From: Candidatus Lindowbacteria bacterium RIFCSPLOWO2_12_FULL_62_27
Lineage (GTDB): Bacteria > Lindowbacteria > 2-12-FULL-62-27
Direction: 5' to 3'
Assembly: GCA_001784175.1 (NCBI GenBank)
Contig: MFPR01000031.1
Location: 1-43,779 of the forward strand
DNA: 43,779 nucleotides
This document shows, piece after piece, positions 5,405 to 22,301 of the stretch. Within the stretch, counting starts at the first letter, position 1. Every line of letters begins with the position of its first letter. The position numbers and the translations under genes were made by a program. The notes under the pieces are model-generated. The model was given only the letters and a program-made list of their open reading frames with translations, was not told the origin of the DNA and ran no database searches.

Positions 5405-6483
5405 AAATCAACTCTCCGGATCACGCCCATCACCCGGCGCGCGAAAATCGGGTCGGGCGCGTCCTCCCGCGTCATGTACACGACCTGTCCGTGAGACTGG
5501 ACGTAGTTCCAATCGAAATGGTGGACCTTGAACCGGACCCGCACCGGCGCGCGGGGCACGGCCGTGTCCTGCGGCGTGGTGTCGGACATCAGGCGCAGGA
5601 AGGGTGAATCGTTGACCGTGCCGGACGTCAGGCCCTTGTAGGCGTCGACCGCGACCAGGACGTAGTAGTACGTCGTATTGGCCGACAATCCCGCGTCCGT
5701 GTAATTGGTCGCGGATCCATCGACCTCCTTGACCAGCGTGTAAGAGGTCGTGCTGCCCGTTGTGTTGCGATAGACGCGGAAGAGTCCCCCCGCGATCACG
5801 TCCGCCGCCTTGAAACTCTCGCCGCCCGTGCCCCAGCTCCCGTACGGCGCGCCCCACGTCAGCCGGACGGTGGTCGTGTCGACCGCCATGGCGTCGAAAT
5901 TGGTGATGGTGATGGGCCGCTCGCCGAAATTGGCGTAGACATAGAACGTATCGCCGGGATCCAAATCCTGCGGCACCGTGATGAGCCGCCGGGCGTCGTT
6001 GCTCGTCCCGACCGTCCCGTATCGAACGGCCGGCGCCGACGTCGAATCGACCTTGAGCGGCTGGGTCCCGCTCTGAATGGCGCCGCCGGTGGGAATCACG
6101 TCATAGTACGTCGTGTTCGGCTGCAATCCCGCCGGCGCGCTGGGACCGGTCTTGGCAAAGAAAAGGAAATTGTAGGTCGCCTTCGGCGTCAGTTGGATGA
6201 TCGCCTGGTACGTGCCGTCGCCGACCGCCGTCATGGTCTGAAGGCCGTTGGTGATGGACGCGCGGCTGACGTCCGACCAGACGGAGGTCTGCGTGCCCGG
6301 GTGGACGGCGATGTACCGCGGGACCTGGGCCCAGGTGTCGGAGGCGTAGGTATCGGCCGCTTGCGCGGGGCTGAGAGAAGACAGGATACAGAATACGGAA
6401 TACAGAAGTGAGAAAAAAAAGCATGGAACCTTCTGTCTTCTGTCTCCTGTCTTCTGTCTTCTCTCAATTCCTGAAATCGACAT
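5401..6483 (-). CDS. Secreted E-set/FN3 protein whose signal peptide is encoded by a hairpin repeat
   Basis: A 360-residue protein starting at an ATG at 6481-6483, which overlaps the end of the giant amylase gene by 20 bases. The predicted leader is MSISGIERRQKTGDRRQK followed by a hydrophobic stretch (FFFSLLYSVFCILSSL) and SPAQA. The basic part and the hydrophobic part are encoded by opposite arms of the inverted repeat at 6373-6465. Mature residues ~43-185 form an E-set-like beta domain (GDGTYQAIIQLTPKATYNF, later RRLITVPQDLDPGDTFYVY), similar to modules in the neighbouring genes. Residues ~190-300 are a fibronectin type III domain (VRLTWGAPYG...TYYYVLVAVDAY). No catalytic residues are seen. 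The stop overlaps the next gene by 4 bases (GTGA). Probably a glucan-binding or structural accessory of the same operon (inference). Confidence 0.8.
   Translation of the reverse strand: MSISGIERRQKTGDRRQKVPCFFFSLLYSVFCILSSLSPAQAADTYASDTWAQVPRYIAVHPGTQTSVWSDVSRASITNGLQTMTAVGDGTYQAIIQLTPKATYNFLFFAKTGPSAPAGLQPNTTYYDVIPTGGAIQSGTQPLKVDSTSAPAVRYGTVGTSNDARRLITVPQDLDPGDTFYVYANFGERPITITNFDAMAVDTTTVRLTWGAPYGSWGTGGESFKAADVIAGGLFRVYRNTTGSTTSYTLVKEVDGSATNYTDAGLSANTTYYYVLVAVDAYKGLTSGTVNDSPFLRLMSDTTPQDTAVPRAPVRVRFKVHHFDWNYVQSHGQVVYMTREDAPDPIFARRVMGVIRRVDL
6373..6465. repeat. AGACAGAAG-type inverted repeat inside a signal-peptide coding region
   Basis: Two 36-base arms, 6373-6408 and 6430-6465, are reverse complements at 30 of 36 positions and are separated by 21 bases. 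Each arm is built of AGACAG/GAAGACAG-like short units. The whole element lies within the first ~40 codons of the gene at 5401-6483, and its outer end reaches the last codons of the giant amylase gene at 6464. Confidence 0.85.
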
Positions 6484-9400
6484 ACACGTATCCTCCCGGG
6501 GTGACGTTGACGACGTTGGAGTTGGGGCTTTCGAGCACCAGGGCGCCGGTATCGACGGAGCGGACGGCGAAGGAATAGCTGGTGCCGTTGGTGAGGCCGG
6601 TCACATGGTAGTTGGTGTTGGCCAGGATCGCCGAATTGACTTTGGTGAACGCGCCGGACGTTTGGAGCTGATAGACGTTGTATCCGATCAGGTCCTGGTC
6701 CTTGGTGTTGGCGTCCCAGAACAGCCACGCGGCGCCCGAGTCAGGCTCGCTCTTCAGGTTCGACACCACGTCCGGGTCTTCCTGCCAGTCGTCGAAAAAT
6801 GTTTTCGAGGCCACGGAGGGCACGGTGACTTCCCGGTTCCGGGACGACGTCGTGAAGTCCTTCTCCTGCGTGTCCGCCGCGAAATAGCGGTACTGCAGGT
6901 TGAATCCGGTCAGCATGTCGGTCGTGTAGGTCCAGGTGTACAGTCCGGAATCAAGCATGGCTTTTCCGCTCCATGTGATATAGGCGTCGTTCGAGAGGAT
7001 CTTCACATTCCCGAACGTAGTGATGGTCCCGACATCCACGGTAAATGTCAACCGGGCGAGCTTGGCCGACAGGACCGTTGAGCTGTCCGACTCGTTCTGG
7101 AAATCGTCCACGGCCGACACGGCGTAATAGTACTGCGTGTTGGTCTGCGCCGTGCTGTCGTTCCAGAAGGGCGAAAAGGACGGGCTGATGAGGGACGCGT
7201 TCAGTTTTTTGTCGGAGGTGAGATTGAAGTTCGGCGTGGCGCTGCGGTAGACGTTATAACCGGCAAGGTCGGCCTCGGTGCTGTAGTCCCATTTGACGAC
7301 GACGCTGTTCAGCCCGCCATTTTCGCCGATGACGCCGGCCGGTTTGGCGGGCGCCGTGTCGTCCGTGTTGGTCGTCGGACGGGCCGATACCGAATCGGTG
7401 GGCAGGGAACTGAAATTCTTGTTGATGTCCACAGCCTTCATCTTGTAATAATACAGCGTTCCGTTGGTCAGGCCGCCGTCGGTGTACGAGATGACGTCCT
7501 TGCCCACGCCGGTCAGTGAGGTGAACGTGACGCCGTCGGTGCTTCGGTGGATTTCATAGTGGCTGATGTCGGCCTCCAAATTGAACGACCATCCCAGCCG
7601 GATGGCGCCGTCGCGGGGGACGGCCGACAGGCCCTGCGGGGCTTGGGGCGCCTGGTCGCCCACGACGTTGAACCGGTTGACCACGGCGAACGTGTGGTCC
7701 GGCGTGTTGGGAACCAGGAATTGCCGGCACGGCTCATAGGTATAGGAATTCCAGTGCGCGCCCGGACCGGCCGCGTTGTAATCGACAAAACAGTCTCCGT
7801 CGTTTTGCGCTCCCGCCAGGGAAGTGGGATTGCATCCGCCCGAGTTGATTTCAGCAATGAAGATGTAATTACAGCTCAACGTCGGATCGAGGTTCACCGC
7901 CGCCTCATAGATGCCGCGGCCTTTCAAGGTCATCTGCACCGGCAAGAAGCCGGCGTCGTAGCGGATGGCCGAATTGTTGTTGAAATCGAATTTGCCCAGG
8001 ACGGCCGGATTTCCCGCCACGTACATTTTGGTGATGCTGCTCGTGTTGATGCCTCCCGGCGCGCTCGTCACATCCGTCTGGAACGTGACCTTGACGGTGC
8101 CCGGCGTCGCCATCGCCTCGTTGGAAAACCCGCTGAGGTTGCCGTTGCGGTCGAGCGCCTTGATTTTGTAATAGTAGGTATCGCCGTTGACGAGCTTGTA
8201 GTCGAAATCGTTGTCGAAAAACGTCGACCGGATGACTTCGATGTAGAGCGGGGGACTTGCGTCGTTCTGGGTTTTGGAACGATAGATGTAATACGATTCG
8301 ACCGTGTCCGAGGATGGATTGTCGGGCCATTCCAGTTCCACCGCGCGGTCGCGCGCGACCGCCATGAGTCCGGACGGCGGCTGGGGCGGCGTGTTGTCGA
8401 CGTAGCCGGCGGGGTCGGTCGCAAGATCGATGGTGGAGACGACGTCGACGCCGTCCGTGAAATTCCAGAGCGCCCGGTACTCGTAGGGCGCTTTCCAGAT
8501 GTTCATCCGGCGCTGGGTGGTGCCGCCGGAAGAGGTCACGATGTCGACGATCCAGTCGGTGGTGCCGGAATTTTTGCTTTCCCGGGTCCAGACGGCCTTG
8601 TCATCGATGGAGACGACCGCGTCGTTCTGGTTCACGCCGTTGATCTGGACCGTGATCTGCGCGCGGGTTTTGCCGAAACTGTTGACCTTGAGATAGGCCG
8701 CCGTGCTGTTTCCGACGCTGAACGCGCTGCTCAGATTTCCGGAACCGTCGGTCGTCGCGGTGCCGCCGGAGAACCAGTCCTTGTAGGTTTTGTTGGCCTG
8801 CAGCGCCCCAATGGCGATCCCACCCGACCCGAAGGTGCGGGCGCCGGACTGACTGGCGTTCATCAGCACCAGAACTTCCTCGGTGGTCGTCCGGCCCCGG
8901 ATGAAGGCCATGGCCTTGCCGTTCTCACTGTACGACCAGTATTGATCCTTCTGATCATATCGGAACGCCGGAAAAATCTGCCGGGCACGCTGGGCCGAGG
9001 CGGCGCTGGCCTGGATGTCGCCCACCGAACCGTCATGAACGATCTGCCCGACCACGCTGCCTTCGTGATTCCAGGGAAACCGGCGGGTCGTGCCGAAAGC
9101 TGATAATTCGCCGGTCGACTGCCAGTCGGGGTAGGTCAGACCTCGTTTGCCCATCATCACCAGTTCGTCGCCGTAGAAAATATAGGGCACACCCGGCATA
9201 CTGCCCTCCCAATACATGATCATCAGCAAGGCGCCGATCGATTTCGACCAGGTGTGCCCTTCGCCCGTGTAATGGTAGGCCCGGTCGTGGTCATGGTTTT
9301 CATAATAGATCGTCATCACCGGCGTGCCGTTCGCGTTCAGCGTGCCGTAATCACTCTCCCATCGGCTCTTGAGGTCGTCACTGGTGTTGCCGCTGCCGGT

Positions 9401-12400
9401 CCATTCAGCCGTCGCCCACCCTTTGAGCCGTTCATCAAACCCGCCCATATGGATCATCCCGATCAGGCGGTTGCCGTCGCCGCAGTAGGCGCTTTGGACA
9501 TCAGCTCCGGACGGAGCCTCGCCGAAACTGTAGAGATCCGGCGCGTAGTCCTTCAATTTGTTGCCCCAGTACGCGTAGAAGGGAAGCCCGCGTTCGGGAG
9601 GAGACGCGTCCGCCGTAAATTTCGCGTTGTCGACCCGGAGGAAATCCATGCCCAACGCGTACAGGAACCGGGCATGATCGGAAAAATACTGGCGGGATTC
9701 CGCGACACCCGGCAGTATGGCGTCGCCGAACATCGGGAAGGTCGTTCCATCGGCCTTGAGGTAATTTCCAGAATTTTGAGTCACGAGAAACGTACTGGAC
9801 CCGCCGGAATGGGGCGTGATCCAGTCCTGGCCGCATCCAAGATTGTGGCGTTTGGCCTCCTTGATCGTGCGCACGTATTCGTCAAAGCCCTTGTAGGTGC
9901 CCCACGTGGTGGGGTTGGCGTAGGACCAGTCGACCGCGTACTGATTTTTCGGGTCGTATCCCCAGCCGGTGTTGCTTCCGAAATCGAGCGCGGGGCTGAA
10001 ATTGATGTGGGTAATGCCGAACCAGTTGAAATAGCCGTCCTTGATGTAGTCGATCAATCCCTGCAGGTCGCCGTTGATGTCGTACTTGCTGGTGCTGGAA
10101 GCGCCGGTTCGCTGGTTGTCCTTCCGGCCGTCCCACCAGCGGCTGATCCAGAGGTTGTAAATCTGGATGTCCCGCATTTTCCCGAAATGGGTGGTGCGGC
10201 TCGGGTTCAAGGGCGCGGCGCCGAACGCCGCGGTGTCGAGTTTAACGCCGGAAAGGCGGGTGGAGGAATCGACGCCGACCGCGAGCCACGCGTCGACCGA
10301 CTGGTCCTGGACGTCATTCCAAGTGGACAGGCGATGGGTGACGACGTCGACGAAGTTGGCGTTGTTGGCGCCGAACTGGCCGATGCCGCCGTTGTCGTTC
10401 CAGAACACGGTCGGCGTGATGCGGACGGTGTCCGACGTGTACTCGGCGGCGCCGCCGATGAGGCTCAGGGGCACGCAGATTTCGACGAAGCTGTCCTGGG
10501 CGTTTTCGGTGTAGCGGCCTTCGCCGACGATGGTGAAGTTCTCGTTGTAGATCGTGACGTCGTCGTTGCCGGTCCGGGCGCTGATCAGATATTCCCAGGG
10601 CACGGACGAATTCACGAACCCGTCCTCGGCGTAGATGTTCCTTCCGAGAAAGGCCCGTTCGCTGGACAGCGACCCGATATCGAGCGCCACCTGAATGTAC
10701 GGCGTGCCGTCTTCCCAGCGGAAAAATTTCATGAAGAGATACAGATTATAGGGATCCATCGCGAACCGGACCTGGTCGAGGTCGAGGTACGGTTCCTTGG
10801 ACGCGTTGTCGTTCCGGTGATCGCTCTGACTGTCGCGCCAGGCGGCTTCGTACTTGGTCAGGATGTACGTCTCGCGGCTGTTGGACAGGCCGAGATTCGG
10901 CGCCCAGTCGCTCGAATCGCCGTTGACGTTTCGCATGCTGTAGTAGATCCCGTCGCTCGGCGGGCTGTTGGGACTCCAGTTCTGTGTCGCTGCGGTGTCG
11001 CCCGCGCGGATGCGGGCGTAGTAGGTCCTCCCGCGAACGAGCACGGCGCCGGAATCCGACCGGATCGTGTAGTTCGTGGTGCACCCGGCGGCCGCAGTGC
11101 CGATGAGGGTATCGACGAGGACGACTTCGACGAAATTCGAATCGTGCGAGATTTCGATCGCGTAATTCTGGATGACCCACGTGTTGGAATGCGTGGCCGG
11201 CGCCCACTGCCAGTAGATGGCCGAATCCGCCGATTCCTTGTCCTGATACCGGTTCATGTTGTTCTTGTTGTTGATGTCCTGCGGACGGTTGACGGTGATG
11301 GTCGGTTTGGTCGTCCGGAAATTCCAGAGCACCGTGTCGGACAGCGTGCCGGTCCGGTCGCGGGCGCGGACGCGCCAGTAATAGATGGTGTTGGTCGGCA
11401 TGTCGGCCGGGATCGTGTAGCTGGTGTCGTTGCCGGAGACGTTCACGCGGTACCGGATGACGCCGTCCAGGTTCGTGTCGGTGCCGAGCTCGACCAGATA
11501 GGAGGTGACGGTGTCGTCCGCATCGGAATCGGTCGTCCGGGTCCAGCGAAGCGTGGGCGCGAGCACGTCCGTGGTGTCACCGCTCCTGGGGAACGGGCCG
11601 GTGCAGGTATTGGGTTTGAGGTTGGCCAGGAGGCCCGCAGAGGTGTAACGAAGCTGAACCCAGAAATCGATGTCGCCGTCCGACAGGTCCTCCTGGTCGG
11701 CCGAGATCGACCGGGCGGCGTCGTTGGTGAACGAGGCGGTCCCGTCGCGGGCGGGAATCGAGACGGCATCGAGCGCGTCGTAGGCGCCGAATTCAACGGT
11801 CGAGTTGATGGCCGACGCCTTTCCGACGCGGTTCTTGAACGACGCGATGGCGATCTGGATCGTATCGGACCCGACAAGCCCAATGGCCGATCGCGAAACT
11901 TTGCCTTCGATCACGTAGGCCGCCGTGTCCATCTCGATGCCGGCGGTCGTGTCCGTCCACCCGGCGGCGGTTTGAATCTCCAGAATCGCGCTGTCCGACA
12001 CGTGGGTATGCACCACAAGCTGGACTTCCGCCGCGAGGGCCGGGGCGACGTAGCTGTCCCCGAAGGAGGTCTGGCTCTCATCCCCGATCGTGGCGTTCCC
12101 GGACCCGGACGCGCCGTCGGTATCGATGGCGATGGCGATGTTCGGATAGTTGGCGACGGTGAGTTTCCGCAGGGACACGCGGAAATAGAGGTTCTCGGTA
12201 TCCATTTTCAGCCGGCACTCCTTGAAGTCGAAATGGTCCGAGTGGGTGACGACCGCGCGCTCCTCGTTCGACTTGTCCAGCCATATCCATTCGCTGTCGG
12301 TCACGCGGGCGGTGTTGATCTCGGCGGGCGCGGTCCCGGTCCAATCCGTGAACGCGCCGAGATTGACCGCGTTGCTCTGCGTCACGGCCGACGTCTCCCG

Positions 12401-15400
12401 CCCGTCCCCCACGCTCACCCGACAGTACCAGACGTCCCCCTGTGCCGTGCTGTCGGCGCTGAGGGTATCGGTATAGGGCGGAACGCTGTCGACGAAAACG
12501 AGCCCGGCGACCGCGCTGTGATTCTGGTACCATTCGAACTGATAGAAAATCGTGTCGCCGTCCGCATCGACGGAACCGGTGCAGGACGCATTGAGGCTCG
12601 AGCTGTTCAGAGGCGTCAGGGGCGTGAGCGTCACCGAATCGAGGGCGGTCGGGACGGCGTTGATCACCGAGAAGACGAAGGCGCTGTCCTGCGCCGCCGT
12701 CTTGGACAGGGTGACGGTGGAACTCGCGTTGTCGCCGTACACGTAATTGTTCTGGGCCTCGCTGATCTGAATGTAATACCGCACGCTGTCCCCCTTGGCG
12801 AACGACGCGGGAATGACGCCTTCGAAAAATTCGTCCGCGCCGTTCGTGTAGGCCGAGGCCATCGCGACGCTGTCCGACGTCGCCCAGGTATCCTTGGAAT
12901 AGACGACAAACAGGTTATTGAAATTCCCTATGGGCGAGGCGCCCGCGGTGATGGTGATGGACTGGGATTTGACGGGCGTCACCGGGCTTCGCATCGTCTC
13001 CTTGCCTGCGACCGGCTGGTCCGCCGGACGGTGGTAGACGTTGGAATTGCTGGTGGACTGGATGACGTACCGTTTGGCGAGCGTGGCGTCGATGCGCGCG
13101 AAGGTGTCGCTCCAGGTGCTGACGGCGTTGCCCTGAAAGGGCGTAATGTCGGAGATGCCCGGTTTGGGGCTGGCGTGCCGGGCGATGTGAACGATCCCGA
13201 CCGTATCGCCGGCTTTGAGGCCGAGGGTGGTCAGGGAAACCTTCAGCTCGCCCCAGCGGTTGGATTCCGAAACCTTGAAATCCGTCCCGCCGGTCATGCC
13301 GGTGGAGGTCCAGTCCGTGTCCCTGCTTTTGTAGAGCGTCATGCCCCCGTAATCCTGGGCCTGGTATCCCATCCATGCGTTGGCCCAGAAATCGGCGCTG
13401 TATTTGTAGACCCGCGTGGCCGGCGAGACCCCCGTTTTCCACGGATCGCCGGATGTGCCCGCCGGGTTGGTGTCGGTGAAGAAAATAAACTCGTAGTGTC
13501 CCGGCTCCGACACGCCGTTTTCCTTGTCGTAGTGCCGGCCCATCGCCTCCCAGCCGAGGTAGAGGTTGCTGATGTCGTTGGTGATGTAGAGTCCGCGGGC
13601 GAGACCGGTGTCGTCAAAGGTGAAGTCGTCCTCGCCGACGTCGGGGACGACGCCGTTGGGCCGCTGGGCGCCGAGGCCGGTCGTATCGGCGGTCGATCCC
13701 CACCCCGGATCCTTGGCGCCGTCGATGAACGGCGTGAAGGCCTTGACCTTCGTTTCGCCGGCGTCCCGGAACGCAGCGGAGCTTCGGAGATAGCCTGCCG
13801 CATTCGGGGTGGTTGGCGCGGGTGTCAGCGAATCGTAATAGATGTAGGACGTGAACGAGACCGGAGCGCTGTCGACGGCGTTGGAATTGGGGGCGGAGGC
13901 TTGGACGTTGCCGTTGTCGCCCTGGTTGGTGTAGAGAAGAAATTTAGCCTGTGTGATCGGCGCTTCCGGCGTGTCGCCGAGGTCTTTCCAGGGGATGCTG
14001 ATTTCGGCGAGTCCGCCGCCGTTGTTTTTGGACACGGCGCCGTTCCAAGTCTGGCCGCCCACCCAGGCCGAATCGGAGGCGCGCCACTTGCGAAGGTCGG
14101 TGTAATCCGCGCCGCCGCCGTTGTTGGGGGCGTAGAGGAACACATAGTCGGGCCGCATGCCCGAGGGAAGATTGTGGACACCGCTCCAGCTTACCGTGGT
14201 TTCAGCGCCGAAATTGGTCACGTGACCGGTGTCGATATAAATCTGGATCACGTCGTTGGCGGCGGTGGTCGGAAAGGCGCTGCCGCGGCTGACGGCCGCA
14301 AAGAGGAACGTCGGGTCCCACCAGAGCCGGTAATCGCGAACGCCGTACGCCGGCAGGATGGTGGTGTCGGGCCAGTCGGCCAGGCCGGCGTCGATGTTGA
14401 CGAGGGTCTTGAAGAGGGAATTGGGAACGAATGTGTCGGAGGCGTCCAGGAACTGGTAGAAATACGTCAGATCGGCCTCCGATCCGCCGCCGGGGTTGGC
14501 GGCCGGATACGACGTCCAGATGTTGGATTCGGATTCATACTGCTGGAACGCGACGATGTTGAACGTGTCCGGGCGTTTTTTGTTGTTGGTGAGATACATC
14601 CAGGGAATCCGGACTTCGGTGTATGGGACGCCGGCCGTACCGATGACACGTCCCCACCCTGCCGATGTATCGATATCGTTTCTGTTGAGCATCAGGCGCC
14701 AGCTTGAGTTGTTCAGCACCTGCTGGAACTCGATGCCCGGTGTGCTGGCGGAATCCTCGATGCAGAACGAGGCATCCCACTTGGCGCCGGTGTCGGTCGG
14801 GAGGTTATGGATGCCGCCGCCACCCCAGTCGATGCTCGTGTTGATGCCGCTTTCGGGCATGATGTCCATGTAGACGAAGAAATCTCCGCTGTTGGAGGTG
14901 TTGATGTCCTTCGGCTGATAGGCAAGGTACAGGCAGGTGTCATCCCAAGCGAGCATGAACCAGATATTCTCGTTCGAGTCCACCTGCATCTTCTCGTCGC
15001 CCTGCCAGTCGGAGACGCTGCCGTTGATGGTGATCGGCTCGTAGTAGATGTGGATATAGCGGGTCACCGACCAGCCGGCCTGGTCGTAGAGCCGGACAGC
15101 GACGGCGTTGACGTTGACGGTGTCGAGCGCGGCAAAGGCCGGGCCGGACAAAAACCAGTCCCCGACGCGGCTGTCGGCGTCGGTGGTGAAAACATCATAC
15201 CATGCGCCGCCGACCTGAACCTGGGCGGTGTCGAGCAGGGACACGGAGTCGCCGTTATAAAAATCGATCTTGATCGCCGGCGCGCGCGTGAAGGTGTCGG
15301 CCTTGAAGACGTAGGTGTCGTCCCGGACGATCATGGTTGGCACGGTGTCGTCGACCCGGAAGGTCTGGGAATACCGGATCGTCGTGGTGTCAAATGTGCC

Positions 15401-18400
15401 GGGCGAGGGAACATTCACGAGCTTGACGACCACCGTTTCGCTGGTGTCGGTCACCGTCGAGACGAATTTGTTCAGGTTGAGCACGAACGAGTCGGTCTGG
15501 GTGTCGGTGGCGTCGCTGTCGTCGGCGACCGTAAAAGTGCAGAAATACGTTTTGGGGCTGACCGTCGTGTTTTTCATGTAGACGGTCAGACCCGCCCACG
15601 TCACCGACTGGCCGGCCTGGAACCATCGGTCGGTGTCGACCGCGCCGTTCGTGACGCCGGCGCCGGTCAGCGTGCCGGAAAGGGTCAGAACGTTGGAATA
15701 AGTCCAGGAAATGGTGGAATCGGTCCATGTGCCCGTGTCGACGTAGGTGTCGGTGGCGCGGGCGCCGATGAGATAATTGGTCGCGTTCGCGAAATTCCAG
15801 CCGAACGCGAGTTTCCAAGTACACGTCACGTCGTTGCCGCTGATGGAGGTGTCGAGGGTGACCGAGTCGCTCAGGTAGGTGTCGCCGGACACTCCGATGG
15901 CGGTGTCACCGCGGACAGAATAAACCCAGATGGTGTCGGCACCGTTGGTGATGCGCAGGTCAAACCGCTGGATGGAGGCGCCGCCGTTGGCGTCCGTGTA
16001 TTTGACGCGGATGCGGTACGTGTCGCCGGGAACGAAGGCCGGGGAGCCGAGAGTCTGGATGATGTCGGTGGCCGCGACGGTCGGCGCGTCGTTGACGCGG
16101 TTGGTGCGGCCGGGCGTGTAGTTGTTCTCGGTCCAGTTGGTCGTGGAGTTGCTGTCGACGCCGTTGTCCGTCAGCATCATGGATTTTTGGCTGCCCGAGA
16201 CGTCGCTGGCGGCGGTGTAGGAGAAGGAATCGTAAGCGGTCCAGATGCCGGTGTCGATGGCGTGGATCATCTCGGGCATGGTTTCGCCGGCGGTGTCGGA
16301 CCGGTGCCACGCGAAATAATCGACGATGGTGCGTGAATCCTGCGTGGTGCGGTTGTTGTAGAGAGCGACCTGATTGAAATTCGTCTGGACGAAAAAGTTG
16401 CTGCCGGAATAATAAATGCCGCTGTCGGCGACGCCGGCTGAGAGGTTGATGTTGTTCGGCGCGGTGTCGCGGTAGATCGTCACGAAGTCGCCCGGACCCA
16501 TGTTGATCGAGGGCGAAATGAAAAAGTCCCGGGTGTCGGCGCGTTCGGCGACGTACCAGTTCCGAAGGTCGATCCAGCCGAACTCGGTGTTGTTGAGAAA
16601 AAAGAGTTCAATGAAGGCGCTGTCGGCGTAGGACCCGGCCTGCGGGTAGACCTCGTTGATCTTGACGGCGGTGTCGTAGCCGGTGACGTACGAATCGAGC
16701 GCGCGGGCGGCCGGGGCGGCTAGAAGACCGGCCGGCAGGGAACTGGTGCCGAAGGCCGCGCCGGAATCAGCGGCGACAAAGAGCGTGCTGTCCTCCCAGA
16801 GGGCGATGGTGTTTCGCTGGGCGGTCGTGAGGACGAGCGTGACGCCGTTGGAGTCGCCGGCGTTTTTGACCGACGCGCCGGAGAGGTTCTGGAGGTTGCC
16901 GCTGCCGTCGGCGTTCGCCTGGACGGTGCAGCGCGAGACGTCGACGGTGCTCGTGTCGATGGGCCGCGAGAAATACAGGAACAGTTCCTTGTTTTTGTGG
17001 CTGTAGGTGGACCGGGTCAGGTAGGGATAGGTGTCGATCATGACCGAATCGGATTTGGTCGTGTCGATTTTCGTCCGCGCGGTGATTCCGCCAACCGACG
17101 GGAGGCGCGCGGAGTCCTCGGCGCTCGCGTACGTCGTCGATGAGCCCAAGAGCGTGCGCAGAATCCCGCGAAACGAACTTGAATTGGTGCCGTTTTCGTA
17201 CGCCACAAGGTCCAGATTGCCCGACCCGTCGATTTCGACGACCACGGCCTCGGTGTTGCTCGTGTTGATGTTCGTCGCCGTGACCAGGACGTAGACCGTG
17301 TCGCCCGCGAGAAAGACGTTGCGGTCCGTCGAGAAATCCGAGTCCTTGAACGCGACCGACGTGATCGACGTCGGCCCGCCGCGGGCGGCGTTGGTGATGC
17401 CAGGCAGAAACGTGAGTTCGATCTGCTGCCATTCGGCGGATGCGGCGCCGTCGGAATCGAGGCCGTCGGTTTTCCGGATGAGGGGGCTGTCGGTGTTGCC
17501 GCTCGTCGTCTGCACGTCGATCGCCACGCCCGCACGCCATATCCCGGCGGTCACGGCGGTGTCGTCCCATAGCGTGCTGCCGATCGAGCCGTTGTTGCTC
17601 CACGTCACGAAATCGATCAGCGTGTCAGATCCGAGCTGGCTTCCCCGGTACAATTCGAGCGCGCCGCTGTCGTCGGACCCGCCGGCGCCGCCGATGTCCC
17701 AGGCCGTGGCCGAATAGAAATGCCGGACACCGAAACTGTCGGTGTAGTTCGTGCCGGTCGCGGGATGAAATACGACAAACTTACCCGGCTGCAAAAGAGT
17801 GTTGGACGGAAAGCTGTACGAGTTGTTGGTGACGGGATCTTTGAGCGTGTAATTGGAGATGTCGAGGACATAGGCGCGGGGATTGTAAAGCTCCACGTAC
17901 TGCTCGGCGGCGACGGCCGAGTTCCAGAGCACCTCGTTGATCTTGACCGTGCCGCGGCGAACCTGGGAATCGTTCCGGGGATTCGTGTCGGGACCGGGAT
18001 TTTCCCAGTAATAGTAATAGGCCAGCGTGTCGCCGACCTCGGTGTAGGTCGCGGGGTTCTGGGTCGGAAAGGAGTGCGAGATGTTCCGCGTCGCGTCCCA
18101 TTTCTGGTAGGCGAGGATGCCGAGCGTCCTCGGAAACCCGCCGAGATTGCTCCAGCGGATGCGGAACTCGCTGAAGGTCGTCCCGGCCGCCGCCCCGATC
18201 GTGCCGCCCTTGATGCTGCTGTCTCCCGGATTGTTCCACTGGGTGTCGACGGCGTTTCGCACCGATTTGTAGTCTCCGCCCTCGACGGTCAGCAGGTAGT
18301 CGGCCTTGAAGGGAAGGAAATGATATCCGCCATCCCAGTCGTCGGAAAACTCCGTTTCCCCCGAAGTCGATCCGACATCGATGGCGACAAACAGGTCCTG

Positions 18401-19027
18401 CGAGCCGGCCGCGAATCCATCGTAACCGATGTACAGAAAGGTCGTGTCCCAGTAGACGTGCAACGTGTCGGCGGCCTCGCCGTTGCGGTCGTCCATGCCG
18501 AGGACGGATTTGGCGGGCCATTCCTTCCACATCTCAACCGATGACGCATTCCATTTGTTCCCATCTGTGCGAACCTGCCCCGCGCCAACGCGAACGACTC
18601 CGTCGGCCCCGTCATCGTCCGAGTACAAGTAATAGTAGCCGCTGTCGGTCAATTGAATCAGGATATTATCATTGGGTGGATTATCGGTAGGCACGTCGAA
18701 ATCCGGATTTCCTTCGGATGAGCTTTGATTCTTATTGATCGAGCCGCCGTTCCCGCGCCATTGCAGACCTGCGCCGAAATTCACACGAAATTTGAAATAC
18801 TCGGTGTCCGGCAGATCCCTTGGCACATGGACAATATTGAAGTAATCGCCGTTGCCCTGGTCAACCCAAAGGGAATCCGTCCCCCAGTTGTCGTACAGGC
18901 CGGTCCATCCGAACTGAGTGATCGCAGCGTGGGCGGCAACCGGACAGAGGACAACCCACACAAGGCCGGCCAGAAGGCTCTGCAGGCAAAGCCTTAAACG
19001 AAATGATAATCGCCACACGTATCCCAT
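6464..19027 (-). CDS. Giant secreted modular alpha-amylase family protein (GH13), 4187 residues
   Basis: Starts at an ATG at 19025-19027 behind GGGGAGGG, with a signal peptide ending near PVAAHA. The order is: a CBM9/DOMON-like module (~150-335); lamin-tail domain 1 (~358-480, VKINEVLWNS); an Ig-like region; lamin-tail domain 2 (~785-920, VKINEVYPQ); further beta modules; CBM9/DOMON-like modules near 1336, 1546, 1769, 2226 and 2703 (INGSVSDW, DAGLADW, DGAKDPGW, FTDWTG, NGDSSDW); and FN3-like spacers. The GH13 barrel starts at ~2951. Its catalytic residues are present: Asp3133 in FLRVDNAKF, Glu3170 in SFGEAPS and Asp3246 in ENHDHDR, with region I reading DWITPH. After ~3546 come FN3 domains alternating with E-set/starch-binding-like modules to the end. 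No FlgD-type sorting domain is seen. An active extracellular alpha-glucan hydrolase or transferase with many binding modules is likely; exact specificity is unknown. Typical amylases are 450-700 residues. Confidence 0.92.
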   Translation of the reverse strand: MGYVWRLSFRLRLCLQSLLAGLVWVVLCPVAAHAAITQFGWTGLYDNWGTDSLWVDQGNGDYFNIVHVPRDLPDTEYFKFRVNFGAGLQWRGNGGSINKNQSSSEGNPDFDVPTDNPPNDNILIQLTDSGYYYLYSDDDGADGVVRVGAGQVRTDGNKWNASSVEMWKEWPAKSVLGMDDRNGEAADTLHVYWDTTFLYIGYDGFAAGSQDLFVAIDVGSTSGETEFSDDWDGGYHFLPFKADYLLTVEGGDYKSVRNAVDTQWNNPGDSSIKGGTIGAAAGTTFSEFRIRWSNLGGFPRTLGILAYQKWDATRNISHSFPTQNPATYTEVGDTLAYYYYWENPGPDTNPRNDSQVRRGTVKINEVLWNSAVAAEQYVELYNPRAYVLDISNYTLKDPVTNNSYSFPSNTLLQPGKFVVFHPATGTNYTDSFGVRHFYSATAWDIGGAGGSDDSGALELYRGSQLGSDTLIDFVTWSNNGSIGSTLWDDTAVTAGIWRAGVAIDVQTTSGNTDSPLIRKTDGLDSDGAASAEWQQIELTFLPGITNAARGGPTSITSVAFKDSDFSTDRNVFLAGDTVYVLVTATNINTSNTEAVVVEIDGSGNLDLVAYENGTNSSSFRGILRTLLGSSTTYASAEDSARLPSVGGITARTKIDTTKSDSVMIDTYPYLTRSTYSHKNKELFLYFSRPIDTSTVDVSRCTVQANADGSGNLQNLSGASVKNAGDSNGVTLVLTTAQRNTIALWEDSTLFVAADSGAAFGTSSLPAGLLAAPAARALDSYVTGYDTAVKINEVYPQAGSYADSAFIELFFLNNTEFGWIDLRNWYVAERADTRDFFISPSINMGPGDFVTIYRDTAPNNINLSAGVADSGIYYSGSNFFVQTNFNQVALYNNRTTQDSRTIVDYFAWHRSDTAGETMPEMIHAIDTGIWTAYDSFSYTAASDVSGSQKSMMLTDNGVDSNSTTNWTENNYTPGRTNRVNDAPTVAATDIIQTLGSPAFVPGDTYRIRVKYTDANGGASIQRFDLRITNGADTIWVYSVRGDTAIGVSGDTYLSDSVTLDTSISGNDVTCTWKLAFGWNFANATNYLIGARATDTYVDTGTWTDSTISWTYSNVLTLSGTLTGAGVTNGAVDTDRWFQAGQSVTWAGLTVYMKNTTVSPKTYFCTFTVADDSDATDTQTDSFVLNLNKFVSTVTDTSETVVVKLVNVPSPGTFDTTTIRYSQTFRVDDTVPTMIVRDDTYVFKADTFTRAPAIKIDFYNGDSVSLLDTAQVQVGGAWYDVFTTDADSRVGDWFLSGPAFAALDTVNVNAVAVRLYDQAGWSVTRYIHIYYEPITINGSVSDWQGDEKMQVDSNENIWFMLAWDDTCLYLAYQPKDINTSNSGDFFVYMDIMPESGINTSIDWGGGGIHNLPTDTGAKWDASFCIEDSASTPGIEFQQVLNNSSWRLMLNRNDIDTSAGWGRVIGTAGVPYTEVRIPWMYLTNNKKRPDTFNIVAFQQYESESNIWTSYPAANPGGGSEADLTYFYQFLDASDTFVPNSLFKTLVNIDAGLADWPDTTILPAYGVRDYRLWWDPTFLFAAVSRGSAFPTTAANDVIQIYIDTGHVTNFGAETTVSWSGVHNLPSGMRPDYVFLYAPNNGGGADYTDLRKWRASDSAWVGGQTWNGAVSKNNGGGLAEISIPWKDLGDTPEAPITQAKFLLYTNQGDNGNVQASAPNSNAVDSAPVSFTSYIYYDSLTPAPTTPNAAGYLRSSAAFRDAGETKVKAFTPFIDGAKDPGWGSTADTTGLGAQRPNGVVPDVGEDDFTFDDTGLARGLYITNDISNLYLGWEAMGRHYDKENGVSEPGHYEFIFFTDTNPAGTSGDPWKTGVSPATRVYKYSADFWANAWMGYQAQDYGGMTLYKSRDTDWTSTGMTGGTDFKVSESNRWGELKVSLTTLGLKAGDTVGIVHIARHASPKPGISDITPFQGNAVSTWSDTFARIDATLAKRYVIQSTSNSNVYHRPADQPVAGKETMRSPVTPVKSQSITITAGASPIGNFNNLFVVYSKDTWATSDSVAMASAYTNGADEFFEGVIPASFAKGDSVRYYIQISEAQNNYVYGDNASSTVTLSKTAAQDSAFVFSVINAVPTALDSVTLTPLTPLNSSSLNASCTGSVDADGDTIFYQFEWYQNHSAVAGLVFVDSVPPYTDTLSADSTAQGDVWYCRVSVGDGRETSAVTQSNAVNLGAFTDWTGTAPAEINTARVTDSEWIWLDKSNEERAVVTHSDHFDFKECRLKMDTENLYFRVSLRKLTVANYPNIAIAIDTDGASGSGNATIGDESQTSFGDSYVAPALAAEVQLVVHTHVSDSAILEIQTAAGWTDTTAGIEMDTAAYVIEGKVSRSAIGLVGSDTIQIAIASFKNRVGKASAINSTVEFGAYDALDAVSIPARDGTASFTNDAARSISADQEDLSDGDIDFWVQLRYTSAGLLANLKPNTCTGPFPRSGDTTDVLAPTLRWTRTTDSDADDTVTSYLVELGTDTNLDGVIRYRVNVSGNDTSYTIPADMPTNTIYYWRVRARDRTGTLSDTVLWNFRTTKPTITVNRPQDINNKNNMNRYQDKESADSAIYWQWAPATHSNTWVIQNYAIEISHDSNFVEVVLVDTLIGTAAAGCTTNYTIRSDSGAVLVRGRTYYARIRAGDTAATQNWSPNSPPSDGIYYSMRNVNGDSSDWAPNLGLSNSRETYILTKYEAAWRDSQSDHRNDNASKEPYLDLDQVRFAMDPYNLYLFMKFFRWEDGTPYIQVALDIGSLSSERAFLGRNIYAEDGFVNSSVPWEYLISARTGNDDVTIYNENFTIVGEGRYTENAQDSFVEICVPLSLIGGAAEYTSDTVRITPTVFWNDNGGIGQFGANNANFVDVVTHRLSTWNDVQDQSVDAWLAVGVDSSTRLSGVKLDTAAFGAAPLNPSRTTHFGKMRDIQIYNLWISRWWDGRKDNQRTGASSTSKYDINGDLQGLIDYIKDGYFNWFGITHINFSPALDFGSNTGWGYDPKNQYAVDWSYANPTTWGTYKGFDEYVRTIKEAKRHNLGCGQDWITPHSGGSSTFLVTQNSGNYLKADGTTFPMFGDAILPGVAESRQYFSDHARFLYALGMDFLRVDNAKFTADASPPERGLPFYAYWGNKLKDYAPDLYSFGEAPSGADVQSAYCGDGNRLIGMIHMGGFDERLKGWATAEWTGSGNTSDDLKSRWESDYGTLNANGTPVMTIYYENHDHDRAYHYTGEGHTWSKSIGALLMIMYWEGSMPGVPYIFYGDELVMMGKRGLTYPDWQSTGELSAFGTTRRFPWNHEGSVVGQIVHDGSVGDIQASAASAQRARQIFPAFRYDQKDQYWSYSENGKAMAFIRGRTTTEEVLVLMNASQSGARTFGSGGIAIGALQANKTYKDWFSGGTATTDGSGNLSSAFSVGNSTAAYLKVNSFGKTRAQITVQINGVNQNDAVVSIDDKAVWTRESKNSGTTDWIVDIVTSSGGTTQRRMNIWKAPYEYRALWNFTDGVDVVSTIDLATDPAGYVDNTPPQPPSGLMAVARDRAVELEWPDNPSSDTVESYYIYRSKTQNDASPPLYIEVIRSTFFDNDFDYKLVNGDTYYYKIKALDRNGNLSGFSNEAMATPGTVKVTFQTDVTSAPGGINTSSITKMYVAGNPAVLGKFDFNNNSAIRYDAGFLPVQMTLKGRGIYEAAVNLDPTLSCNYIFIAEINSGGCNPTSLAGAQNDGDCFVDYNAAGPGAHWNSYTYEPCRQFLVPNTPDHTFAVVNRFNVVGDQAPQAPQGLSAVPRDGAIRLGWSFNLEADISHYEIHRSTDGVTFTSLTGVGKDVISYTDGGLTNGTLYYYKMKAVDINKNFSSLPTDSVSARPTTNTDDTAPAKPAGVIGENGGLNSVVVKWDYSTEADLAGYNVYRSATPNFNLTSDKKLNASLISPSFSPFWNDSTAQTNTQYYYAVSAVDDFQNESDSSTVLSAKLARLTFTVDVGTITTFGNVKILSNDAYITWSGKAMLDSGLYTWTYTTDMLTGFNLQYRYFAADTQEKDFTTSSRNREVTVPSVASKTFFDDWQEDPDVVSNLKSEPDSGAAWLFWDANTKDQDLIGYNVYQLQTSGAFTKVNSAILANTNYHVTGLTNGTSYSFAVRSVDTGALVLESPNSNVVNVTPGGYVYVDFRN

Positions 19028-19148: not shown

Positions 19149-20249
19149 TCAGAACTCAAAAACCGTATTGTCATCCTTGTCCTTGCTGGAGACTTGAGGG
19201 TCCGGATGCCACGCGTGTTCGCCCTTGTCGTTTTCGACCACGAACTTGTACGCATGCGCGCCGGGCGTCAGCGCGACGATTTTTTTCCAGATTCCGTCTT
19301 CCCCGCGTTCCATTTCGAACGAGGGGTCCGTCACGCGGCCGTTGTCGTTATTGGCGAAGTTGTTGAAATCGCCCGCGAGATACACCTTCTGCGCGTCTTT
19401 CGATTCGAACGTGAACAGGTATCCACCCTCGACCGGTCGCGGTGCGGACGCGGCAACCGCCGGACGACGATCGCGCAACGTCGCCATCGTGTTGTCGTCC
19501 TTGTCCCGGCCGGACACATGCAGATCGGGATGCCACGAACACTCCCCTTCGGCATTCGCCGCCACAAATTTATAATGGACCTCGCCGGGATTCAGCGGCA
19601 ATACCTTCCGCCACACGCCGTCACCGCCGCGCTCCATCTCGCAGGCCGGGTCGCTTACCCGGCCGTTGTCGTTGTTGGCCCAGTTGTTGAAGTCGCCGGC
19701 CAGATACACCTTGTGCGCATCCGCGGACTCGAACGTGAAAAGAAATCCTCCCGCCACGGCCTTCGGCGCGCCCGGCCCGGTGTCGTTGTCCTCGGGAGAG
19801 GGGAGAGGCGCGGCGCCGGCGGCGCGGACCGAAGCCAAATCGAGCACGGTGTTGTCGTCCTTGTCGCGCTCCGTGACGAACGGGTCCGGTTGCCAGGCGC
19901 ACTCCCCTTGGTCGTTCGCCACGACGTATTTGTAACGGACCGCACCGGGCTCGAGGCTCAGGATTTTGGTCCAGACGCCGTTTTCCTGCCGCGTCATTTC
20001 AAAGGCCGGATCATTCACCCGGCCGTTGTCGTTGTCGGCGAAGTTGTTGAAATCGCCCGCGAGATAGACCTTGTGCGCGTCTTTCGATTCGAAGGTAAAG
20101 AGGTATCCCCCCTCGACTGCAACGGGCGCCGCGGCGGTGTAGATGACCGGGGCGGCCGTCTCCTGCGCGGCGGCCGGGTCAGCGCCTCCGGCGCCCCAAG
20201 TGCCGGCGAGCGCCAGGAGGGTGAAGAGCATTAGATGACGAGTTTTCAT
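19149..20249 (-). CDS. Secreted protein of three tandem glycogen-binding (AMPK-beta/CBM48-like) domains
   Basis: A 366-residue protein from an ATG at 20247-20249 with a GAGGTGA site 6 bases upstream. After a signal peptide of ~28 residues it consists almost only of three ~91-residue repeats at ~47-137, 167-257 and 275-366, joined by Ala/Pro linkers. Each repeat reads GGYLFTFES, KVYLAGDFNN, NDNGRV, an acidic or aromatic strand, PG...YK(Y/F)V, C/H-(A/S)W(Q/H)PD and ends KDDNT. These are hallmarks of the AMPK-beta glycogen-binding fold, with Trp, Lys and Asn at sugar-contact-like positions. The same subtype forms the N-terminus of the amylase at 32528-35344. There is no catalytic domain. It probably binds extracellular or periplasmic alpha-glucan and presents it to the enzymes encoded on either side (inference). 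Part of its signal peptide is encoded by one copy of a 36-base inverted repeat. Confidence 0.88.
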   Translation of the reverse strand: MKTRHLMLFTLLALAGTWGAGGADPAAAQETAAPVIYTAAAPVAVEGGYLFTFESKDAHKVYLAGDFNNFADNDNGRVNDPAFEMTRQENGVWTKILSLEPGAVRYKYVVANDQGECAWQPDPFVTERDKDDNTVLDLASVRAAGAAPLPSPEDNDTGPGAPKAVAGGFLFTFESADAHKVYLAGDFNNWANNDNGRVSDPACEMERGGDGVWRKVLPLNPGEVHYKFVAANAEGECSWHPDLHVSGRDKDDNTMATLRDRRPAVAASAPRPVEGGYLFTFESKDAQKVYLAGDFNNFANNDNGRVTDPSFEMERGEDGIWKKIVALTPGAHAYKFVVENDKGEHAWHPDPQVSSKDKDDNTVFEF

Positions 20250-20429
20250 GAAGGATCACCTCGCTTTGTATTTAACTCCGGTCAAACCTTAGTTCGGCAT
20301 CAGGCGTTTGGCAAGGCGTCCAGATTCGTGTTACTCGTACCGGATCAAGACGACTCCGAACACAGTAAGGTTCGGTATCCTCGCGTGAACCTGGCCGGCA
20401 CTTGGGGCGCCGGAGGCGCTGACCCGGCC
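20172..20429. repeat. Perfect 36-base inverted repeat spanning a gene junction
   Basis: Bases 20172-20207 and 20394-20429 are exact reverse complements over 36 positions (GGCCGGGTCAGC... and ...GCTGACCCGGCC) with a 186-base interval. The left copy encodes part of the signal peptide of the triple glycogen-binding protein (LAGTWGAGGADPA). The right copy encodes RVSASGAPSAG near the C-terminus of the GH66 enzyme. The interval holds the GH66 stop codon and the start codon and ribosome-binding site of the next gene. Confidence 0.9.
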
Positions 20430-22103
20430 CGCGCTGAGTGTCCAATCCACCGGGCGGGGAATCAGGAATTCATCCGAGTCCGGGGAGGCATAATATATAT
20501 GGAGAGGCCGCTTGCCGGCGGGCATTGGAACGACGAGTTCCGTGTCGGTCAGCGGGTCGGGCGGCGCAATGGGGCGGCACCAATCGCGGTTGCCGCCGGT
20601 GCGGAGGATCTGGACGGCCATCCAGCCTTCGTCCGAATCGAAGGACCGGACGACACAGCCGGGCAACCGGACATCTGTCTCGAGATTCCGCACGTTGGAC
20701 CCGTGCGTGATCCGGTACAGGAGGGCGTCGAGAAAATTGTAATTCCGCAGGATGTCAAAATTCTCATTCGACATGGCGACGTTGTCCGGATAGTAAAGGC
20801 TGTTCAGCGCGTGCATTTCGCCCCGCCGCTCGGCCGGCTCGCCTGCGACCATCACGGACCCGCCGCCGGTGAGGGCGGCGGCGAGGACATACCGCAGATT
20901 TTCCGCCGGCCAGGATTTTCGCGCCGGTTTCATGTCAGCCGGATAGACTTTGAGGATCACACGCTGGTTGTTTGGCCGCCGGTGCCGGAAGCAGATGTCG
21001 ACCAGATCCTCCAGGCGGCTCTTGTGCGACGCCCAATTTTCGATGAACAGAAAATCGACGGCGCCGTACATCGATTCGATGCCGTATTCGTCCACGCAGT
21101 TGAACGATACCGCCGCCGGGTCCTTCATCCCGTGCGTCATGACCCGGACATCGGTCACGAGTTCCATGATGACGTCGGAAAGCAGCCGGCCGCTATGACG
21201 GCTTCCCCGGCTGTAGTACCGGTCGTTCCGGTCATGTCCGTAGGAGTCGATTTCGAATCCGTCGAAAGAGAATATGTCGGCGGGGCTGTCGTCCAGAGCG
21301 CGGCGGAATTCGTCCATGATGTACGCGCGCCATTTCGAGTCCCGGTCGATGGCCATCAGATGAAACCAGACGGGCTTGCCCCGCCGCTTCGCTTCCGATT
21401 CGGTCATCACCGATCCGTTGAAAATCCTCGGCGTGCCGGCCGCGTCCGTCATCGGATACGGGTATCGCTCATAGACGCTGCGGGACGCCGCGTAGGCCGC
21501 GACGTAGGCGATCGAAAGGATCCCGCGACGCCGGGCCGATTCGATCTTGCGGCGGACATCGTCCCCGAGGATCCGGATGCCGAACGGCTCGTACGTATAG
21601 ACGGCGGCGGTGGGCGCATACCGGCCGTGCGCGGGGAAGTAGTCGTAGTATTCGATCGCGTTGATGTGGAGACGCGCGAAGAGGCCGGCTTTTCGGTCAT
21701 AGTCGGCGCCCGGTTTGTCCCAGTTGGCGTAAAATCCATAACGGAGATCGTCCGAGATGTTGCGCGCGACCGTCAGGACCTCGCGGGCGGCATCGGTCAC
21801 GGCGCCGTTTTCCTCGAGGGTTGCTTCGATCAGGTACCCGCCCTCCCGCAGGTCCGGTGTCGGCACGGGAACGTGGGCCGTCTCGGGCAGGTTCGCCATC
21901 TGCTGCGAAAAAACGATCTCGCCGTCAAAGCGCTTGAGCCGAACACTGAGCGATGGATCCGACGGGGACGAGTCGAAGAATTGAAACGCAACCGCGACGC
22001 TTGCCGTTTCCCCCGGCCGGACCCAGACGCGGTCCGCCGTCAGGCTCTGTATCCGGACGGTCGCGCCCGCATCTCCGCACATGCACACGATCAGGGCGCA
22101 CAT
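20331..22103 (-). CDS. Secreted GH66-family enzyme (dextranase / cycloisomaltooligosaccharide glucanotransferase type)
   Basis: About 590 residues from the ATG at 22101-22103. GH66 enzymes act on alpha-1,6-glucans (dextran), cutting them or cyclising them. Family signatures are clear: YGFYANWDKPGADY, then LHINAIEYYDYFPAHGRY; the nucleophile Asp286 in FDGFEIDSYG; and the acid/base Glu355 in LFIENW. Their 69-residue spacing is as in characterised GH66 enzymes. An N-terminal Ig-like domain (~15-120) precedes the barrel, and a beta domain follows it. The start is uncertain. The hydrophobic export segment (IHFSVLLMCALIVCMCGDAGA) begins before the ATG, so a GTG at 22151 or a TTG near 22109 may be used. 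The frame stays open to 22289 through the CACGAA repeat, where I see no convincing ribosome-binding site. The C-terminus contains the 36-base inverted-repeat sequence. It is the first gene of the minus-strand glucan cluster. Confidence 0.85.
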   Translation of the reverse strand: MCALIVCMCGDAGATVRIQSLTADRVWVRPGETASVAVAFQFFDSSPSDPSLSVRLKRFDGEIVFSQQMANLPETAHVPVPTPDLREGGYLIEATLEENGAVTDAAREVLTVARNISDDLRYGFYANWDKPGADYDRKAGLFARLHINAIEYYDYFPAHGRYAPTAAVYTYEPFGIRILGDDVRRKIESARRRGILSIAYVAAYAASRSVYERYPYPMTDAAGTPRIFNGSVMTESEAKRRGKPVWFHLMAIDRDSKWRAYIMDEFRRALDDSPADIFSFDGFEIDSYGHDRNDRYYSRGSRHSGRLLSDVIMELVTDVRVMTHGMKDPAAVSFNCVDEYGIESMYGAVDFLFIENWASHKSRLEDLVDICFRHRRPNNQRVILKVYPADMKPARKSWPAENLRYVLAAALTGGGSVMVAGEPAERRGEMHALNSLYYPDNVAMSNENFDILRNYNFLDALLYRITHGSNVRNLETDVRLPGCVVRSFDSDEGWMAVQILRTGGNRDWCRPIAPPDPLTDTELVVPMPAGKRPLHIYYASPDSDEFLIPRPVDWTLSAGRVSASGAPSAGQVHARIPNLTVFGVVLIRYE

Positions 22104-22250: not shown

Positions 22251-22301
22251 ATGTTTATCGCCGCGATTTACCGAGAGCCTACCATACACTTAATTTATCG
22301 T

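Follow-up and report, generated by a model that had tools for sequence, protein, structure and literature searches.

Mobile DNA within essential genes has, to our knowledge, been seen mainly in Rickettsia; these bacteria live as small intracellular populations under weak selection, which would naturally explain its presence. Cyanobacterial small dispersed repeats (SDRs) are also mobile, measure 20–30 bp and can insert into other repeats. The Rickettsia palindromic elements (RPEs) and the Wolbachia WPE are selfish palindromes that lie in frame inside conserved protein genes and leave those genes intact; RPEs are 100–150 bp long and known from Rickettsiales, and nearly half of the first-described ones were in ORFs (PMC10969869, PMC2229807). 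GTAG/CGTC REPs are palindromes of 20–40 bp that occur in tens to hundreds of copies, mainly between genes (Di Nocera 2013, PMC3733652). Some REPs are intragenic and encode 20–30 amino acids, a number of them in tRNA synthetase genes, and REP dimers are head-to-head; the GTAG type has an unpaired GTAG at one hairpin end, and the CGTC type has an unpaired terminal CGTC, a loop of 4–5 nt and a CCA tail (PMC3733652). REPINs are non-autonomous units of two hairpins for which mobilization in trans by a Y1 transposase, RAYT, has been proposed (PMC3116915, a source in which SDRs receive a passing mention).

The locus discussed here lies in a window (the whole stretch of DNA analyzed, 43,779 nucleotides) from a MAG of 4,388,164 bases, G000. 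An earlier note on this window had described a perfect 36-base inverted repeat reaching from the signal-peptide codons of a triple glycogen-binding protein into the C-terminal codons of a GH66 enzyme and enclosing the stop of one gene and the start and ribosome-binding site of the next. All of this is borne out (Table 1). The two 36-nt arms are exact reverse complements with 186 nt between them, Pfam supports both protein families, and between the arms lie the GH66 stop codon and the ribosome-binding site GAGGTGA (20256–20262) and ATG (20247–20249) of the CBM48 gene. This pair is the longest inverted repeat in the window; the runner-up is an 18-nt self-palindrome, no other exceeds 18 nt, and 100 shuffles produced no matches (expected 0). 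Copy A falls within the signal-peptide codons of the CBM48 protein, among its first ~25, and encodes GTWGAGGADPA. Copy B occupies residues ~560–573 of the GH66 protein, among its last ~30 codons, and the antisense frame of the copy encodes GRVSASGAPSA. It is C-terminal to the Pfam-matched part, and a PDB alignment of the GH66 protein ends before copy B and yields no empty site.

Table 1. Features of the inverted-repeat locus, in window coordinates.
Feature	Position	Strand	Details
Host gene 1, secreted protein with three glycogen/starch-binding modules (CBM48 / AMPK1_CBM)	19149..20249	-	Pfam PF16561 7e-20, PF02922 9e-20
Copy A, half-element (hairpin 2 + spacer)	20172..20207	-	exact 36-mer; frame 'same 2'; CM 45.9 bits at 20165-20224
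Segment between copies, 186 nt	20208..20393	.	CBM48 gene start, its RBS, 81-nt intergenic gap, GH66 stop
Copy B, half-element, opposite orientation	20394..20429	+	exact 36-mer; frame 'anti 1'; CM 51.3 bits at 20387-20436
Host gene 2, GH66 family glycosidase	20331..22103	-	Pfam PF13199 8.8e-34, residues 24-543; start codon uncertain (upstream GTG at 22289)

The inverted repeat very probably consists of two shortened copies of a mobile element, short, palindromic and non-autonomous, that has spread in the genomes of this family and is tolerated inside genes. A dispersed coding-compatible repeat was among the options of the earlier note, and it is the one upheld by 47–79 copies in G000, 92% intragenic placement and precise empty sites in orthologues. 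The genome search for further copies that the note had proposed returned 47 occurrences of the 36-mer in G000 (three or fewer mismatches) and 64 of a 27-mer core, and reversed-control sequences gave 0 matches there in both searches. A covariance model derived from 52 full-length copies, applied to the best 150 candidates per genome, matched 79 sites in G000, 43 in G002 and 1 in G001, the latter two genomes representing sister genera in the same family; the weakest of these matches (near E = 0.01) are uncertain. The element is present at at least 70 places in G000. Close copies number eight in G002 and one in G001, and the eight near-exact copies of G002 sit in different genes from those of G000. 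No copy was found in 383 other genomes searched, nor the exact core in viral contigs or phages. A plasmid search gave a single marginal match, in Sphingomonas traA (E = 7e-3), which was taken as chance. An assembly artefact is unlikely because many different unique flanks border the copies, which are spread over at least 20 contigs, and members of the family also occur in two other genomes. As for the host, just two genomes from the same family came up in a search for relatives of G000, all further ones belonging to other phyla, and the host lineage appears almost unsampled.

The complete unit measures 48 bp, and the 36-mer corresponds to its right half. Most of the aligned copies reach past the 36-mer and read GGCC GGCGTC-GGA-GACGCC GGC ACTTGGG GCGCC-GGA-GGCGC TGAY CCGG, the full unit being GGCCGGCGTC-GGA-GACGCCGGC-ACTTGGG-GCGCC-GGA-GGCGC-TGAYCC. 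It contains two hairpins in direct order, with stems of 9 bp (hairpin 1) and 5 bp (hairpin 2) and a GGA loop in each; long terminal inverted repeats were not found in the element. The 14 stem pairs are 99% paired among copies, with 15 two-sided changes over five pairs and one G-U cell, and this covariation shows that the stems are kept as palindromes (CCGATGTC/GACATCGG and GCGTC/GACGC are examples of compensatory stems). Since G-U intermediates are nearly lacking, the hairpins probably act as DNA rather than RNA. CCGG lies on both sides of most copies and may represent the insertion target or a 4-bp target duplication.

Evidence for insertion comes from orthologues and from copies nested within copies. 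GltX of G000 and G002 (about 77–79% identical) differ by one 16-aa gap, located exactly at the element (RVIKPAGSAPPAPQVPASPTPAGGITYQDL in G000 vs RVRKPEGGMTYRDL in G002 across the insert site). In TrmD, exactly 16 residues are absent from both G001 and G002 ahead of the conserved CGRYEG-type motif. The occupied and empty states of these two genes provide one of the features by which non-autonomous MITE-like elements are recognized, precise presence and absence at orthologous sites, and PDB homologues of TrmD, GltX and CarA are likewise without the insert. In the nested copies L047 and L078, exact excision of 48 nt restores the outer element at 44/50 and 48/50 positions, and the junction in both is GG^A inside a hairpin loop; the nested set is limited to these two, L015 and L072 being possibly nested or tandem (37-nt period). 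Therefore, the exact 48-nt excisions and the 16-aa gaps in orthologues define a unit of 48 nt, a multiple of three. The PP2C host of one G002 copy was also considered as an empty site and set aside, as its homologues in G000 and G001 are 31–34% identical and too distant.

When gene calls from a simple codon-usage script were applied to 65 copies, 60 were inside genes (~92%) and five were intergenic. Because the DNA is ~94% coding, genes are neither favored nor shunned by the element. Its hosts include gltX, trmD, carA, lepA, purQ and neuB. The reading frames are far from evenly used: codon phase 0 holds 14 same-strand copies and 1 antisense copy, and phase 1 holds 1 and 15, respectively (Fisher 9e-7; against a CCGG phase null, chi2 31, p = 1e-5). 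CCGG is its own reverse complement, so insertion by itself gives no orientation bias for a given codon phase. Two classes are nearly empty: one frame runs into a TGA stop, and the other encodes QRLRRPKC, which is rich in Arg and Cys. The four other frames yield the unrelated peptides GTWGAGGAD, ALGAPEAL, SAPPAPQVP and SASGAPSAG. From these frame statistics, we infer that inserts are translated and that harmful ones have been purged by selection, since the stop and Arg-rich frames are almost empty. An insertion of 48 nt would never shift the frame, which would allow the element to occupy a genome that is almost entirely coding, and the translated inserts would be small stretches rich in Ala, Pro, Gly and Ser, which proteins tolerate.

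Copies A and B are half-units without hairpin 1, a kind that makes up about 7 of the 65 copies. They are best read as in-frame inserts of 33 nt (11 aa), the length that loss of hairpin 1 (15 nt, also a multiple of three) would leave in the window genes. Removing 33 nt in silico turns the start of the CBM48 protein into MKTRHLMLFTLLALAAAQE, with the region of copy A reading MKTRHLMLFTLLALA-AAQE as a normal signal peptide, and it gives the GH66 protein the ending PVDWTLSAGQVHARIPNLTVFGVVLIRYE, a plausible GH66 tail. The earlier note had also proposed a comparison with orthologues of both proteins; this was carried out in G001 and G002, where neither window protein has a close orthologue. Among 79 copies, ~0.3 pairs as close as this one are expected by chance. 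Therefore, the window pair needs no special cause, and its closeness and inverted order are probably coincidence. Two half-units side by side are mildly unexpected nonetheless and hint at a shared local history.

In function, the element is closest to the RPEs. As with RPEs, insertion is in frame and spares the host gene, as the 16-aa gaps in GltX and TrmD and the 60 intragenic copies illustrate. It is set apart from them, by description, in being 48 bp rather than 100–150 bp, GC-rich, built of two direct hairpins instead of one long palindrome, located in ORFs in 92% of cases and carried by another lineage. We would class it as a protein-coding selfish palindrome, in a shorter, differently built variant from another lineage. 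It also resembles the SDRs in being a tiny mobile repeat that inserts in other repeats, and it differs from them, again by description, in size and lineage. As to how it moves, eight Y1_Tnp genes of G000 exceed the curated cut-off, and the element would move as single-stranded hairpin DNA, with one of these eight Y1 (IS200/RAYT-like) transposases probably acting in trans. Single-strand transposition by such an enzyme is the likely route, preferred because the two direct hairpins bounded by a short fixed tetranucleotide, and the insertion in hairpin loops, resemble the ends that IS200/IS605-type single-strand transposases use. No element copy was found within 1.5 kb of the eight genes. The relation of copy orientation to GC skew at fourfold sites, expected if insertion follows single-stranded DNA of the lagging strand, is weak (p = 0.04–0.07).

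A broader reading, which we hold tentatively and consider a little more doubtful than secure, is that an active 48-nt element, transposed as a single strand and adapted to genes, is carried by a lineage outside Rickettsiales, that its length is a multiple of three and four of its six frames are open and innocuous, and that it targets hairpin loops, including its own, and adds 16-residue peptides to the essential enzymes GltX, TrmD, CarA and LepA. If a gene-adapted element of this type does exist outside Rickettsiales, protein-coding selfish palindromes would have had more than one origin. Here, mobile DNA is found in essential genes, glutamyl-tRNA synthetase among them, in a 3–4 Mb genome of an uncultured lineage with a groundwater-derived related MAG. 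It thereby becomes possible to test whether selfish DNA gains access to proteins through a frame-preserving length and bland peptides rather than through host lifestyle, and the dozens of copies serve as natural experiments in which 16 residues are inserted into conserved folds.

Among the other explanations, an ordinary REP/REPIN family moved by a dedicated RAYT and lying in genes by chance survives best, and we still consider it unlikely. The element is a small hairpin repeat with tens of copies, RAYT-like genes are present in G000, and intragenic REPs are known (PMC3733652). The likeness to REPINs extends to a two-hairpin, non-autonomous unit with a Y1 transposase in trans as the candidate mobilizer. 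However, the consensus of 65 copies contains no GTAG, and the CGTC seen here is not an unpaired tag but part of the paired stem of hairpin 1, with a 3-nt GGA loop and a TGAYCC tail in place of CCA. The hairpins are in direct order, whereas those of REP dimers are head-to-head and those of REPINs mutually inverted. REPIN hairpins flank RAYT genes, but no RAYT in G000 is flanked by copies, and the intragenic share reported above contrasts with the mostly intergenic location of REPs (PMC3733652).

An mRNA structure, with the two arms pairing in a shared transcript and thereby adjusting how translation of the CBM48 gene is coupled, is improbable. The strong stem that the earlier note had envisaged is indeed predicted (fold of -160 kcal/mol, z = -7.9, with the arms paired over their full length), but the control of coupling attached to it does not follow, as such a stem is expected wherever a GC-rich repeat occurs in two inverted copies. 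In addition, the ~63 other copies examined are mostly single and within genes, the ribosome-binding site and start codon sit in the loop, and the two-sided changes with almost no G-U favor DNA palindromes over a selected RNA. High copy number and conserved sequence could also mark a selected functional motif that is not mobile, such as an uptake sequence, a chromosome-organizing site or a conserved peptide, yet this is very improbable for a sequence that is read in four frames as four unrelated peptides, differs in position between genera, leaves exact 48-nt gaps in orthologues and nests within its own copies. Least credible is the earlier note's invertible segment, suggested by inverted 36-bp arms of identical sequence that bracket 186 bp with a start codon and ribosome-binding site, with recombination between them flipping the segment and switching the CBM48 gene off, but the arms belong to a genome-wide repeat whose other copies are not so paired, and inversion would harm both genes by swapping the last ~20 GH66 residues and detaching the CBM start codon and ribosome-binding site.

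Individual copies of the mobile element add some detail. In LepA (EF-4), the copy is at the extreme N-terminus, immediately before the conserved FCIIAHVDHGKST motif (L026:1501-1527), and at L065:2573-2599 and L049:2473-2499 the element forms the protein C-terminus through its own TGA or a codon just after. The host gene at L071:2512-2538 starts like a DnaE PHP domain and continues as an unrelated protein, with the copy in the middle of the gene. A diverged full unit in the L163:3595 region has compensating changes in both stems (GCGGGCGTC/GACGCCCGC and GCCGC/GCGGC). A search for hairpin 1 by itself found a few solo hairpins and no pointer to an autonomous parent element; one is a solitary perfect hairpin 1 (CGGCCGGCGTCGGAGACGCCGGCCG) at G000:C37:48073-48091, where the rest of the element is absent, and further hairpin-1-only sites in G000 are C6:31773, C10:17278 and C28:37670. 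Within the window, an Rfam scan of 19900–20700 gave just two sub-threshold snoRNA matches, which were rejected. A 30-bp direct repeat (19353–19382 and 20037–20066) between the carbohydrate-binding modules of the CBM48 protein suggests a recent module duplication, and an open reading frame of 4187 aa on the minus strand (6464–19027) possibly encodes a giant surface protein.
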